From contig DYRG01000012.1 in the NCBI GenBank assembly GCA_020718845.1, positions 23,070-65,265 on the forward strand: a stretch of 42,196 nt of DNA. The letters are read 5' to 3'. This DNA comes from Thiomargarita sp. Its GTDB lineage: Bacteria > Pseudomonadota > Gammaproteobacteria > Beggiatoales > Beggiatoaceae. The notes under the pieces were generated by a model. The model was not told where the DNA came from and made no database searches. It was given only the letters and a program-made list of their open reading frames with translations. Numbering within the stretch: position 1 is the stretch's first letter; each line of letters starts with the position of its first letter. Made by a program: the position numbers and the translations under genes. Below are positions 10,239 through 15,295 of this stretch, piece by piece.

Positions 10239-11420
10239 ATGACCCCATTAGAACGTATTCATTATTTAGCGAATATTTTGAATTTAGCTTCTTCACAAAT
10301 TCATGAATATCAAGAAACAACTTTAGAAATAATTTGTCAAGAAATTCAAGCAGATAAAGCAGAGTTATTGCAAGCCTATCAATTACAAAAACAGCATTAT
10401 CAACCTCAATTAGTCGGAAGATATGCGCAGCAAATTGGTAATTTGGCAGATATGTTATTTTTTGTGCTTGCATCTGGAAATTTAGAAGAACATCACAAAA
10501 CAATTTTATTAGATTTTGCTCAACCTTTAGGTATTACTCAAACTCAATTTCAACGTTTTATGCAAGAAGCAAAAGCGCGTTGTCAATGGATTCAAGAATG
10601 GAGAAAATGCTCCGCGTGTTCAAATCAAATTCCCGCAAATAGTAAATTTTGTCCGACCTGTGGTGAATTTCAACAAAAACTTTTTTTAACGGATTTGAAA
10701 AAAGAAGAAAAACCCGTTTCTACATTTCAAATTCCTAATAAAGGTTTCGTTTTATTAATTGATCCTGCCCATAATAATAGTTTAGTTTTAGTAAAGAATT
10801 TCAAATTGAAAAACATTTCTTATTTAGAGAAAGAATGGTTGTATGGATATTGGGAATTCGAACATATTGGAGAAATCTTACCTTTAATTAATAATTTGTC
10901 TTTTGATTTAGTTCAAATTTATGGTGATGGACAATTATTAAAATGGGAGGAACTTTTTGCATTTGTTCCGTGTGCAAAACAACGCCAGCAAAGCTATTCT
11001 CCAGAAGAACATTGTTTTGGATTAAACCAACAAAATTTGAATATTTGGGGTTGTGTTCAAGCAGAAATGAATTGGCAAAAAGATGCGGCGTGGTTTTGTT
11101 ATGGATATTTTGAAAGCAAAGAAATCTTTTTATTGGATAAGAAAAAAATCTCTCATCAATTAGAACAACGATTACAATCTTATCATTTGTGTCCTCATCT
11201 TGCACGAAAGAAACTTCCTCACATTATTCAAGCCTTACCCGATAAAATTATGATTGATAATAAAGCATGGGATTATCAAACAACTGAAAAAGAAATTTTA
11301 GGAGCATATCGTTTGGAAAATCCCTTGCGTTGGGCATTTGGTGTTTCTCCGTTAAATTTAAATCTTGCGGTTGAAATCATTAGAAGTCATTTTCCCCTTT
11401 TCTCCGTTCAAAAGAAATAA
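10239..11420 (+). CDS. Hypothetical protein with TerB-like helical region and zinc ribbon
   Basis: 393 residues, no signal peptide or membrane segment. Residues about 60-115 (ADMLFFVLASGNLEEHHKTILLDF and following) look like a TerB/DnaJ-associated helical module. A treble-clef or zinc-ribbon motif follows with Cys124, Cys127, Cys138 and Cys141 (CSAC...FCPTCG). The C-terminal 250 residues are not recognisable; they contain many aromatic and acidic positions and repeated WxxxxxW spacing. It begins one base after the SGNH-like gene's stop, so it is cotranscribed with the MBOAT pair. Its last 63 bases overlap, antisense, the end of the transglutaminase gene. A regulatory or assembly role for the acyltransferase is inference only. 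Confidence 0.7.
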   Translation: MTPLERIHYLANILNLASSQIHEYQETTLEIICQEIQADKAELLQAYQLQKQHYQPQLVGRYAQQIGNLADMLFFVLASGNLEEHHKTILLDFAQPLGITQTQFQRFMQEAKARCQWIQEWRKCSACSNQIPANSKFCPTCGEFQQKLFLTDLKKEEKPVSTFQIPNKGFVLLIDPAHNNSLVLVKNFKLKNISYLEKEWLYGYWEFEHIGEILPLINNLSFDLVQIYGDGQLLKWEELFAFVPCAKQRQQSYSPEEHCFGLNQQNLNIWGCVQAEMNWQKDAAWFCYGYFESKEIFLLDKKKISHQLEQRLQSYHLCPHLARKKLPHIIQALPDKIMIDNKAWDYQTTEKEILGAYRLENPLRWAFGVSPLNLNLAVEIIRSHFPLFSVQKK

Positions 11421-13379
11421 TGTTTGTTGAGCAAGTTGTTTTCTTTCATCATTTGTTAAACCATTTGGATCAAATCGATAACGGTTGTGCAAATGCAATA
11501 ATTGCTTGATTTCTGGACTTAAAGATAAACCTTCAAACCAATGATTTAAAGATTCATAAGCAGGGCGTTTGAAATAAGATTTCTCAAGTTGAGCAATAAT
11601 GTTATAAAATTCAGAATCTTTTCCTTTCGCATTTAATTTAAAAAGTCCTTTATTATCAATGAGTTGCAATGTTTTTTTATTAGAATAACGAGTTAAACGC
11701 CAAATCAACCACCCTAAAAGAAAAACAATTAAAAGAAGCCATTTCTTTGAGGTTGTTTCGTCGGCGCTTCGCCACTGCCATTCTGTAACCCAATAACGCA
11801 TCCAAGCCCATAAATTATAAGCACTTTCCCACCATTCGGCTTTTTCACTTTCTTCTGCTGCCCACACGGCTGGCGTGGTATCTATGTCTTGCCAATGCCC
11901 GTCGATATAAGCCATAGTCCACGCATGGGCATGGCGACGACGCACAACGTAAGCCCTTTCAAGAAAAGAATATTCTTGCACCGCGTAACCCGTCGCGTAA
12001 CGTGAAGGAATCCCTGCGGCGCGTAAAAGTAATGCCGTCGCGGTCGCAAAAAACTCGCAATGACCCGCACGGGTTTCAGTGAGAAATAAAGAAAGCGGCG
12101 TTTTATTAGTTGAAGAACGCTTTTGAATTAAAGAATATTTAAAATTGTGTTGAAAGAAATTTAAAATAGTTTCAGTTTTTGCTTTATCAGAGGTTAGTGG
12201 ATTTGTTAAATCTAACTGTTCTGCAATCGTTTGAATCGTGTTTAATTCAGTTGGAGGAATTTCTAAAAAACGTTCTTTAGAAATTGGTAAAGGTTGAGGT
12301 TCATTAACGTGCTCTAAAAACACCGCATGAATTTTGTAATGTAAGAAATCAGGTGCGTTGAGCAACTTAATTGAACCATCATAAATATTTCGCCATAATT
12401 CTAAGCCAGTCAGTGTATCAATTTTATAGGCATCTAAAGGCAAAGGAAGCATTCCTTGTCCACCATCAAAATAACTTGCAATATCTAGCATATAAGATTG
12501 TGAATTAGTCGGCATTTCTGATAATTGCCAACTTCCTGCTTTTTCCAATAAAAGTTGCTCAAATTTAACGTTTTTCGTGTACCAACTTTGTCCTCCAAAA
12601 GTGTCATAACTAGATTGCCGCAGTAATAGAGGACTGCGTGCGTTTTTAACTCTAAATAAAATTCTTCCCGACAATTTTAATTCACCGATTTCACCAATGG
12701 CGGTGCGTTGTTTGTATGGATCACGATCTAACCAGCGGCTTTCTAACCATTTCATTGCCCATTCTTCAATTTGGGTTTGTAATGAAGATAAACCTTGTTG
12801 TCCGACAAATCCAATTCCAATTGAAAAAATGAGTAAAAAAAACCAAATTAAAATAGAGAAACGTTTAGAACGCCAATAAAATAAACCCCAAATCGTAAAG
12901 AAAGCTAATCCATAAAAGAAAGTTGGGTCTTTTAAAACCGTTGCAGACATTAAACATAATACTAAATAAGCATAAAGAATATCGATCCGTTGCGGACCAA
13001 TAAATTCGTGAGGAGGAATCTTTCGCAACGACATAAACAATGCCGCTAAAGGAATGCTCGGCGTGGTTGAATAAACTTGCATTAAAATAAGTAAGAAAAT
13101 TAACGCAGGCGACCAACGTAAAATTTCAAACAAACCATCGGTAATATTTTTAGAAAGCCAATAAACACCCAAGATAACAAGTAAAACCGTAACGATTTCA
13201 GAAATGCGATAGAAACTCTTATCTGGAAAATCCCATCGAGTTTTAATAACATATTGAATTTCAATCAAAATTGCCATCGGCACAGCAAATGATAACAAAT
13301 CAGTTTGCCATCCCCAAAATAATAAAACCGCCCCTGCAAAGAAAGGCGGTATTGAAAATTGTTTTGAAAGTGTTTGCAT
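11358..13379 (-). CDS. TgpA-like transglutaminase-domain membrane protein (DUF3488/DUF4129 type)
   Basis: 673 residues. The N-terminal 200 residues form about six membrane helices (DUF3488-like). A large extracytoplasmic domain with a transglutaminase/cysteine-protease core follows: Cys441 in AGHCEFFATATALLLRAAG, His485 in RRRHAHAW and Asp500 in WQDIDTTP. A final membrane helix (WLLLIVFLLGWLIW) precedes a cytoplasmic DUF4129-like tail. This is the layout of Pseudomonas TgpA, a periplasmic transglutaminase-like enzyme important for growth. In most gammaproteobacteria it sits with MoxR and DUF58 genes; here it sits with lexA and a DUF1737-like gene. Its start abuts the upstream stop and no separate ribosome-binding site is seen, suggesting coupling. 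The C-terminal codons run antisense into the neighbouring zinc-ribbon gene. Confidence 0.9.
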   Translation of the reverse strand: MQTLSKQFSIPPFFAGAVLLFWGWQTDLLSFAVPMAILIEIQYVIKTRWDFPDKSFYRISEIVTVLLVILGVYWLSKNITDGLFEILRWSPALIFLLILMQVYSTTPSIPLAALFMSLRKIPPHEFIGPQRIDILYAYLVLCLMSATVLKDPTFFYGLAFFTIWGLFYWRSKRFSILIWFFLLIFSIGIGFVGQQGLSSLQTQIEEWAMKWLESRWLDRDPYKQRTAIGEIGELKLSGRILFRVKNARSPLLLRQSSYDTFGGQSWYTKNVKFEQLLLEKAGSWQLSEMPTNSQSYMLDIASYFDGGQGMLPLPLDAYKIDTLTGLELWRNIYDGSIKLLNAPDFLHYKIHAVFLEHVNEPQPLPISKERFLEIPPTELNTIQTIAEQLDLTNPLTSDKAKTETILNFFQHNFKYSLIQKRSSTNKTPLSLFLTETRAGHCEFFATATALLLRAAGIPSRYATGYAVQEYSFLERAYVVRRRHAHAWTMAYIDGHWQDIDTTPAVWAAEESEKAEWWESAYNLWAWMRYWVTEWQWRSADETTSKKWLLLIVFLLGWLIWRLTRYSNKKTLQLIDNKGLFKLNAKGKDSEFYNIIAQLEKSYFKRPAYESLNHWFEGLSLSPEIKQLLHLHNRYRFDPNGLTNDERKQLAQQTLFLLNGEKGKMTSNDFNRKI

Positions 13380-13586
13380 TTAAGAAGAAGACGGGCTTGC
13401 TAAAACGTTTTTGTGAAGCATGGGTTGATAATAATAGATTTCAGTATGTTCTTCTTGAATACTCATAGAACCGTGAGGACGATAGCCTTTCAAAATGAGT
13501 TCCATCACACGGCTTTCTAGGGTTGCAAGTTGAGATTCACAAACCACAATATAGGCTTTGGCTTGTTGAGGAGGATTTGGTGGCAT
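13380..13586 (-). CDS. Small DUF1737-like protein
   Basis: 68 residues. The pattern YIVVCESQLATLESRVMELI, then KGYRPHGSM and the near C-terminal YYYQPMLH, fits the DUF1737 family of small proteins (a strand, helix, G-[WY]-x-P-x-G, then YYQ-M). That family resembles an OmpR-like or RHH-sized fold and has no assigned role. A GGAGAA ribosome-binding site lies about seven bases ahead of the ATG. It starts 20 bases after lexA and ends directly against the transglutaminase start, so it forms the middle of a lexA-x-tgpA operon. The family assignment is from memory. Confidence 0.72.
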   Translation of the reverse strand: MPPNPPQQAKAYIVVCESQLATLESRVMELILKGYRPHGSMSIQEEHTEIYYYQPMLHKNVLASPSSS

Positions 13587-13606: not shown

Positions 13607-14245
13607 TTAAAATTGACGAATAACACCCATTCCTAGCCCTTCAATATGAAGATGTTGGGTGCGTAAATCTACTTCAATAGGTTGATAATGGGGATCACGG
13701 TTTTCTGGTAACAAATAAACTATTGGATCATTTCTGTTTTTACGAAAGAAACGTTTGACGGTAACTTCTTCTTCTAATCGAGCAACAACAATTGCATTAT
13801 TTTGAGGAATTGCTTGAAAGTTTCTCACTGCCAATAAATCACCGTCAAATATTCCCGCCTCTTTCATGCCTTCACCATGTACCCGTAACAAATAATCCGC
13901 TTGAAATACCCCATTCACTTCGTAATAGGTTTCAATATTGGTTTCTGATAAAATAGGCAAACCCGCAGCAACTCGTCCAATTACGGGCAAACGTTGGGGA
14001 TAGGATTTCTTTTCAAAAATGATTTCTTCGCCCGCCGCTAACAAACGAATTCCGCGTGATTTTTTGCTTTCATCTAACGCAATCATGCCTTTGCGTTCAA
14101 GGGCTTTCAAATGTTGCTGTGCGGCATTAGCTGAGCTAAAACCTAATTTATTCGCTAATTCTTGGCGCGTGGGCGGCGCGTGATCCCGCAAACTATGGGC
14201 GATGCAGCGCAAAACGGCTAATTGTTTGTCGGTTAAAGCATTCAT
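13607..14245 (-). CDS. lexA: LexA repressor with Gly in place of the catalytic Ser
   Basis: SOS transcriptional repressor; normally RecA-stimulated self-cleavage inactivates it. 212 residues from ATG at 14245. The N-terminal winged helix (PTRQELANKLGFSSANAAQQHLKAL region, residues 26-49) is close to the E. coli recognition helix, implying a CTGT-N8-ACAG-like target. The cleavage site Ala94-Gly95 (GRVAAGLP) and catalytic Lys164 (VTVKRF) are intact. The serine of the GxSMK motif, however, is replaced: residues 124-128 read GEGMK with Gly126 (codon at 13868-13870, GGC on the minus strand; Ser would be AGC). E. coli LexA S119A is non-cleavable, so this protein is predicted not to self-cleave. The frame is open 21 codons upstream, but the promoter lies inside that stretch, so the shorter start is preferred. 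Confidence 0.93.
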   Translation of the reverse strand: MNALTDKQLAVLRCIAHSLRDHAPPTRQELANKLGFSSANAAQQHLKALERKGMIALDESKKSRGIRLLAAGEEIIFEKKSYPQRLPVIGRVAAGLPILSETNIETYYEVNGVFQADYLLRVHGEGMKEAGIFDGDLLAVRNFQAIPQNNAIVVARLEEEVTVKRFFRKNRNDPIVYLLPENRDPHYQPIEVDLRTQHLHIEGLGMGVIRQF

Positions 14246-14279
14246 AAATGTTATGATAGCGGTTACTTTTGTTTCTTTA

Positions 14280-14308
14280 AGTTTGTTTAATTTTTGATTA
14301 AATGTCAA
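14280..14308 (-). promoter_or_regulatory. lexA promoter with a palindromic spacer
   Basis: On the minus strand there is a perfect TTGACA (14303-14308), a 17-base spacer and a weak -10, CAAACT (14280-14285). The spacer itself is an inverted repeat, TTTAAT-N5-ATTAAA (14286-14302). No CTGT-N8-ACAG SOS box was seen between lexA and moaA. The palindrome may be an operator; the binding protein is unknown. Confidence 0.5.
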
Positions 14309-14320
14309 GGGTGAAAAACC

Positions 14321-15295
14321 ATGTTAATAGATAAATTTGGTCGTAAAATCAATTATTTACGCATTTCTGTGACAGATCGTTGTGATTTTCGCTGCATTTA
14401 TTGTATGGATGAAAAAATGCGTTTTTTAGCACGCGATCAGATTTTAACTTTAGAAGAAATTGAGCAAATTGCTCGAACTTTTGTTCATTTAGGCGTTGAG
14501 AAAATTCGTATTACAGGCGGTGAGCCTTTAGTGAGAAGAAATATTTTATGGTTGTTTGAGAAACTTAGTCAATTAAATGGTTTGAAAGAACTGGTTTTAA
14601 CGACGAATGGATCGCAATTAAAAACGATGGCGCAAGATTTGAGAAATTCTGGTGTTAAACGTTTAAATATTAGTTTAGATACTTTAAAAGAAGATCGCTT
14701 TCAAAAAATTACTCGCACAGGTCATTTATCAGATGTTTTAAGTGGTATTCAACAAGCAAAGAAAGTCGGTTTTAAAAAGATTAAAATCAATTCAGTGATT
14801 ATGAAAAATCGCAATGCTGATGAAATTATTGATTTGGTGAACTTTGCAATTGCAGAAGATTTAGATATTACCTTTATTGAGGAAATGCCGCTTGGTTTAA
14901 TGGCAGAACATGATCGATCAGAAGTGTTTTATTCAAGCGATGAAGTTTTAAAGGATTTAAAGCAACATTTTGATTTAATTGAACTTTTAGAAACAACGGG
15001 CGGTCCAGCAAAATATTATCAAATCATTGGAAAATCTAATAAAATTGGTTTCATTTCACCGCACAGTCATAACTTCTGTGATACTTGCAATCGAGTTAGA
15101 TTAACTGCGGAAGGGCGTTTGTTATTATGTTTAGGTCAAGAACATTCTGTAGATTTGAGAAAAACTATAAGAACTTGCCCAGAACAATTAGAGCAAACGA
15201 TTAGAAAATCAATGGATTTAAAACCACAAGGTCATGATTTCAATATTCAAGAACAACCGATGATTTTTCGTTATATGAATCATACGGGCGGTTGA
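14321..15295 (+). CDS. moaA: GTP 3',8-cyclase (molybdenum cofactor biosynthesis MoaA)
   Basis: Radical-SAM enzyme that, with MoaC, converts GTP to cyclic pyranopterin phosphate in molybdopterin synthesis. 324 residues. The first 4Fe-4S cluster ligands are Cys21, Cys25 and Cys28 (DRCDFRCIYCM). The ITGGEPL SAM-contact motif is at 64-70. The second cluster ligands are Cys253, Cys256 and Cys270 (NFCDTCNRVRL...LLLCLG). The essential C-terminal Gly-Gly is the last two residues. AGGG precedes the ATG by about eight bases. It is divergent from lexA across only 75 bases, and no other moa or moe gene lies in the window. Its last 56 bases overlap pepP antisense. Confidence 0.97.
   Translation: MLIDKFGRKINYLRISVTDRCDFRCIYCMDEKMRFLARDQILTLEEIEQIARTFVHLGVEKIRITGGEPLVRRNILWLFEKLSQLNGLKELVLTTNGSQLKTMAQDLRNSGVKRLNISLDTLKEDRFQKITRTGHLSDVLSGIQQAKKVGFKKIKINSVIMKNRNADEIIDLVNFAIAEDLDITFIEEMPLGLMAEHDRSEVFYSSDEVLKDLKQHFDLIELLETTGGPAKYYQIIGKSNKIGFISPHSHNFCDTCNRVRLTAEGRLLLCLGQEHSVDLRKTIRTCPEQLEQTIRKSMDLKPQGHDFNIQEQPMIFRYMNHTGG

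Follow-up and report, generated by a model that had tools for sequence, protein, structure and literature searches.

In the textbook picture, bacteria switch on their DNA-damage response through the self-cleavage of LexA. The lexA gene of this Thiomargarita genome encodes glycine where the catalytic serine is expected, which raises the question of whether its product is still a working repressor, a protein in decay, a repressor released in some other way or simply a misread sequence. The window, i.e., the whole stretch of 42,196 nucleotides that was analysed, contains the gene together with its immediate neighbours.

The lexA gene and its active site

The features of the gene are as follows.

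13607 to 14245, minus strand: lexA coding sequence, 212 aa (P0001), ATG start (ORF translation, TIGR00498, PF01726, PF00717)
14054 to 14245, minus strand: N-terminal DNA-binding domain, residues 1-64 (profile match, alignment)
13637 to 13987, minus strand: C-terminal S24-type domain, residues 87-203 (profile match)
13961 to 13966, minus strand: Ala94-Gly95 cleavage-site pair, intact (A and G in 29 of 29 relatives)
13903 to 13904, minus strand: junction lacking a three-residue F-x-P segment (both F and P present in all 29 relatives)
13868 to 13870, minus strand: GGC codon for Gly126 in place of the catalytic serine, E. coli Ser119 (translation, alignment)
13754 to 13756, minus strand: Lys164, the second residue of the dyad, intact (K in 29 of 29 relatives)

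The product belongs to the LexA family as defined by the NCBIfam equivalog profile TIGR00498 (168.4 bits against a cut-off of 110.95), being full length with an N-terminal LexA_DNA_bind domain (PF01726) and a C-terminal Peptidase_S24 domain (PF00717), both over their cut-offs. It can be aligned over its full length with the E. coli-type LexA chain, and the Ser to Gly change then falls on Ser119. The plus strand reads GCC at 13868-13870, giving GGC on the minus strand, and the surrounding motif is V-H-G-E-G-M-K. The preliminary description, which had read this motif as GEGMK with Gly126 in place of the catalytic serine, was correct in both coordinates and residues, and the Ala94-Gly95 pair and Lys164, which it had called intact, are seen in the translation and are the same in all 29 relatives. 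It had also held that one base would explain the change. The glycine codon is indeed a single base from a serine codon, but the loss of F-x-P, which we take to be the counterpart of E. coli Phe105-Lys106-Pro107, needs more than that. The protein thus retains the catalytic lysine and the Ala-Gly site of a self-cleaving S24 repressor and has Gly126 for the serine; it is a LexA orthologue by sequence, yet without the serine that defines self-cleaving S24 peptidases it is not classed among them.

LexA among relatives and within the genome

The LexA protein was searched against 115 genomes, 57 of which gave a match (the Thiomargarita genome included), and the main comparison was made with the 29 best-matching loci besides its own, i.e., in an alignment of 30 rows. 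Such an alignment had been proposed as a check in the preliminary description, and the residue at the position of Gly126 is Ser in 29 of the 29 best matches. Of the alignment columns, 38 do not vary across the other 29 rows; the Thiomargarita LexA departs at four of them (I30L, the missing F, the missing P and S126G), which is the largest number for any of the 30 rows; the next largest is three, in two rows, and 20 rows have none. Three of the four departures cluster at the active-serine stretch, and I30L sits in the DNA-binding domain, where the recognition helix is nearly identical to that of the three closest relatives in the alignment.

For a wider set, 40 further regions were read (G088:C16, G067:C2, G099:C18 and G047:C7 were left out). 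The serine column in the resulting 69 other LexA-like places holds Ser in 65 and Gly, Ala and Thr in one each, while one sequence is short of the column, so that 3 of the 68 other proteins covering it lack the serine. These are L179 (G094) with Gly, L161 (G073) with Ala and L168 (G099) with Thr; L179 and L161 lie above the TIGR00498 cut-off and L168 slightly below it. The host genomes of L161 and L168 have additional LexA-like copies, and G094 gave no second match in the LexA search. All three share the lack of Ser with the Thiomargarita LexA; however, their Ala-Gly pair is altered as well (3 of 3), whereas it is kept here, which suggests that the loss of Ser in Thiomargarita may be the more recent one.

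A separate contig scan of 25 related loci showed Ser in 14 and Ala in 11, the latter in UmuD-like proteins of Bacteroidota. Nine of these, mostly from Chitinophagaceae (L055, L056, L057, L059, L061, L063, L064, L065 and L066; e.g., L055:4836-5276), have GDAM for GDSM, Arg at the position of the catalytic Lys and T-G at the presumed cleavage site, and a UmuC-like motif follows the gene in six of the nine. Proteins with such residues should be unable to cut themselves. L060 and L062 likewise showed Ala and Arg in the first scan and were not recovered in the second reading. LexA-like regulators of Bacteroidetes are a subject of PMC8565304.

The neighbours of lexA are as follows.

11358 to 13379, minus strand: transglutaminase-core protein (profile match; next in order in G030 too)
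13380 to 13586, minus strand: small ORF of 68 aa after lexA, with a weak DUF1737 match just under the cut-off (profile search)
14246 to 14320: spacer of 75 bp between lexA and the divergent moaA, with no LexA box (matrix scoring)
14321 to 15295, plus strand: moaA-like radical SAM gene, divergent from lexA (profile match)

The 68-aa ORF downstream of lexA is common to G030 and G013, which indicates that the lexA loci are orthologous, and the order lexA, small ORF, transglutaminase is common to the Thiomargarita genome and G030. A relocated lexA was considered and rejected on account of these shared downstream genes. On the other side, no match to moaA was found in the relatives' lexA loci searched (as a rule with 1.5-kb flanks), and the region upstream of lexA may be rearranged; the 75-bp spacer has no sigma-70-like consensus site. 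The LexA tree placed the protein in a clade with L005, L006 and L007 of the same family (support 100/99), on an end branch of 0.70 versus 0.45, 0.50 and 0.44 for these sisters. In the C-terminal domain it is 61, 57 and 63% identical to these sisters, near the 63-65% found among the sisters themselves, so the domain still looks constrained. Both the clade and the common neighbours mark it as an orthologue of the relatives' LexA. Judged by its sequence, this LexA is native, vertically inherited and changed in its own lineage, with no visible pseudogene traits.

The genome (2,979,191 bases in 123 contigs, 99.97% complete) contains one LexA according to the PF01726 profile search. Dependence on a second LexA, one of the options raised in the preliminary description, is not supported, given this single match in so complete a genome. 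The sole other PF00717 match is a 106-aa protein (L003:1435-1755), which keeps GDSM, has Arg at the Lys position by eye and gave no DNA-binding domain match in the domain profile search; its gene adjoins an hrcA-like ORF (named by eye). Without a DNA-binding domain match, it was rejected as a replacement LexA. The search for recA, likewise proposed there as a check, found one full-length RecA match without stops, i.e., an intact gene. In four other family genomes, the RecA match ends near profile position 198 within open frames of 536-682 aa (G002:C1:1676529-1677116, G026:C22:92799-93386, G010:C67:80797-81387 and G006:C68:25195-25788), a pattern that an insertion in recA, e.g., an intein, would produce.

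LexA boxes at recA, lexA and other promoters

LexA-bearing relatives have a degenerate SOS box upstream of lexA and recA, TGTATATAATNACA-like at lexA. Promoters were scored leave-genome-out against 500 simple (mononucleotide) shuffles with a small matrix of 11 sites from relatives, none of them from the Thiomargarita genome. The recA promoter of Thiomargarita has the box CTGTACACTTATACAC with a score of 13.5 (shuffle P 0.002). The six other LexA-bearing genomes in which recA was located all have a box before it, with P values no higher than 0.008 (G030 gave no recA match and is outside this count). The Thiomargarita score is the lowest of the seven with one matrix for all, and the lowest by a little under leave-genome-out scoring. 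Among the LexA-less genomes of the family, which are related to each other and therefore are not independent tests, a recA box occurs in 1 of 23 (G020, score 12.6, P 0.005, 200 shuffles); the 23 include G011 and G033, with weak PF01726 matches, and nine more with recA were left out. This single box (L078 in G020) could perhaps reflect a recent loss of LexA, or chance.

The lexA promoter is boxed in 6 of 7 relatives, and the exceptions among all the genomes are G018 and Thiomargarita itself, where 250 bp were scored and no box was found (best 5.9, shuffle P 0.26). The preliminary description had held that relatives with Ser and clear boxes upstream of their lexA would speak against the loss. 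Such relatives do exist, with Ser in 29 of 29 and the lexA box in 6 of 7; they indicate a change in this lineage away from a normal ancestor, and the loss here still stands. In G018 (C17, L012), LexA has its Ser and recA has a box, and there is none before lexA; the loss of the lexA box is thus not tied to the loss of Ser.

No box was found by matrix and shuffles at the uvrA (P 0.35) and recN (P 0.53) promoters of Thiomargarita. For uvrA, a box is present in two of six genomes (G009, P 0.003; G028, P 0.010) and absent in G013, G015 and G018 besides Thiomargarita (no uvrA passed the search threshold in G030 or G014, which were not counted); for recN, none of eight genomes showed a convincing box, the best being that of G028 (P 0.027). 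Of the four promoters scored, therefore, only those of recA and lexA are boxed in most LexA-bearing genomes, and Thiomargarita keeps that of recA alone. Measured by a canonical SOS regulon, the recA box is present and those of lexA, uvrA and recN are absent.

The box pattern with up to two mismatches gave 546 matches over the whole genome versus 664 for the reversed control, i.e., no excess. The only match without mismatches is the recA site, which is not independent, as the pattern was written after that site had been viewed. Inspection of 27 loci from the genome-wide list showed a palindromic box-like site, ATGTATAAAAATACAT, at about 1501-1516 of L114, 108 bp before a mutS-like gene (named by eye); the site may be due to chance.

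Probable loss of the SOS switch and comparison with known systems

The explanation that we favour, at slightly better than even confidence, is that an uncleavable, non-inducible and non-autoregulated LexA holds recA at a fixed level. In E. coli, LexA cleavage requires Ser119 and Lys156 (PMC7567884). Because cleavage needs the serine and Gly126 has no side-chain nucleophile for the Ala-Gly bond, self-cleavage is expected to be lost and, with it, very probably the RecA-driven inactivation of LexA; the conserved F-x-P next to the nucleophile disappeared in the same lineage. With its DNA-binding domain and the recA box kept, LexA would still bind the recA promoter, from which RecA filaments would no longer remove it. 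Having no box of its own, lexA would be expressed without feedback, and no other route for inactivating LexA would operate. The presence of the recA box here and its rarity in LexA-less relatives (1 of 23) suggest that LexA may still bind there, and selection for this binding would be the simplest reason for the box.

Several points were counted against a fixed repressor of recA. Continued binding depends on one target, recA, the box of which has the lowest score of the seven; uvrA and recN have none, and box-like sites over the genome are not in excess. The lexA box is also lacking in G018, which has its Ser, and the longer branch of the Thiomargarita LexA would be expected from decay no less than from a new role. 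In the sisters scored, where LexA is intact, uvrA and recN likewise have no box. Of the four options raised by the preliminary description, the recA box speaks most for a non-inducible or constitutive repressor, and the interpretation given there is borne out in part.

The main competing explanation, a decaying relic, we consider unlikely: LexA would have lost SOS control and would bind little, and the recA box would be a recent leftover. The F-x-P segment, the serine and the lexA box are all gone, uvrA and recN are unboxed, and LexA is uncommon in the family. Among 42 family genomes (several incomplete) from 25 genera, which is also the number given for Beggiatoaceae in GTDB (PMC11172852), PF01726 matched in only 10, and two of these matches are weak (G033 and G011, whose loci gave no tblastn match with the Thiomargarita LexA); for the 30 genomes with completeness of 90% or more and contamination of 5% or less, the count of matches is likewise 10. 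Moreover, no Y-family polymerase (PF00817) was found in the 13 family genomes searched, that of Thiomargarita included, in a search that gave a match in 11 of 14 control genomes. However, the gene is full length, its C-terminal domain is conserved nearly as in the sisters, and the recA box present here is absent in 22 of the 23 LexA-less genomes examined.

Less likely still, and in our view improbable, is a switch that is not driven by RecA, with release by regulated proteolysis, modification, a small ligand or cutting in trans. Tuning by phosphorylation, as proposed in PMC7567884 for the LexA of Synechocystis 6803, which is without the site and Ser, would be a precedent, and the genome does have a second S24 protein with GDSM. 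However, no route is directly evidenced, and the 106-aa protein would be a poor trans-protease because of the Arg seen by eye at the Lys position and the lack of a DNA-binding domain match.

A base or assembly error at the codon 13868-13870, with Ser in the true protein, was another option of the preliminary description and is highly improbable: the codon is one base from Ser, the cleavage site and Lys are intact, and it is known from one assembly, the sole genome of its genus in the sample, but that base has no bearing on the absence of F-x-P and of the lexA box, and with 3 of 68 proteins Ser-less elsewhere, natural loss should be commoner than consensus base errors.

The fixed repressor of recA may also represent a midway stage in the dismantling of SOS, in which LexA and the recA box were kept, the switch was removed and the repressor became a fixed governor of the recA level; this we hold somewhat short of even confidence. 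Most family genomes examined have neither LexA nor a recA box. If it is true, the family would show a stepwise series of SOS loss, i.e., LexA intact, uncleavable and absent, and a natural sole LexA with a recA operator and no nucleophile would mean a cell living with SOS fixed off at recA. Among the matches listed for open-licence PMC titles and abstracts, there was no report of an uncleavable LexA in Beggiatoaceae.

The S119A mutant of E. coli LexA is uncleavable, and SOS stays off. The Thiomargarita protein has the same architecture as E. coli LexA and is changed at the same serine; however, mutants of the S119A type were engineered, whereas the loss in Thiomargarita is genomic and is accompanied by the F-x-P deletion and the lack of an autoregulatory box. 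The sisters L005, L006 and L007 share its clade and a near-identical recognition helix, with a recA box in G015 and G013, but in them Ser, F-x-P and the lexA box are all present. The closest natural likeness is in Synechocystis sp. PCC 6803. There, Asp replaces the Ser of LexA and Gly-Gly replaces Ala-Gly, and the protein is regarded as uncleavable and has probably left the SOS regulon, according to PMC3091678 (for the phosphorylation proposal, see PMC7567884). When a regulon shift of this type was looked at here, the recA box was present and genome-wide boxes were not separable from chance. Unlike the Synechocystis protein, the Thiomargarita LexA has Gly for Ser, keeps Ala-Gly and Lys, is missing F-x-P and is found together with a recA box.
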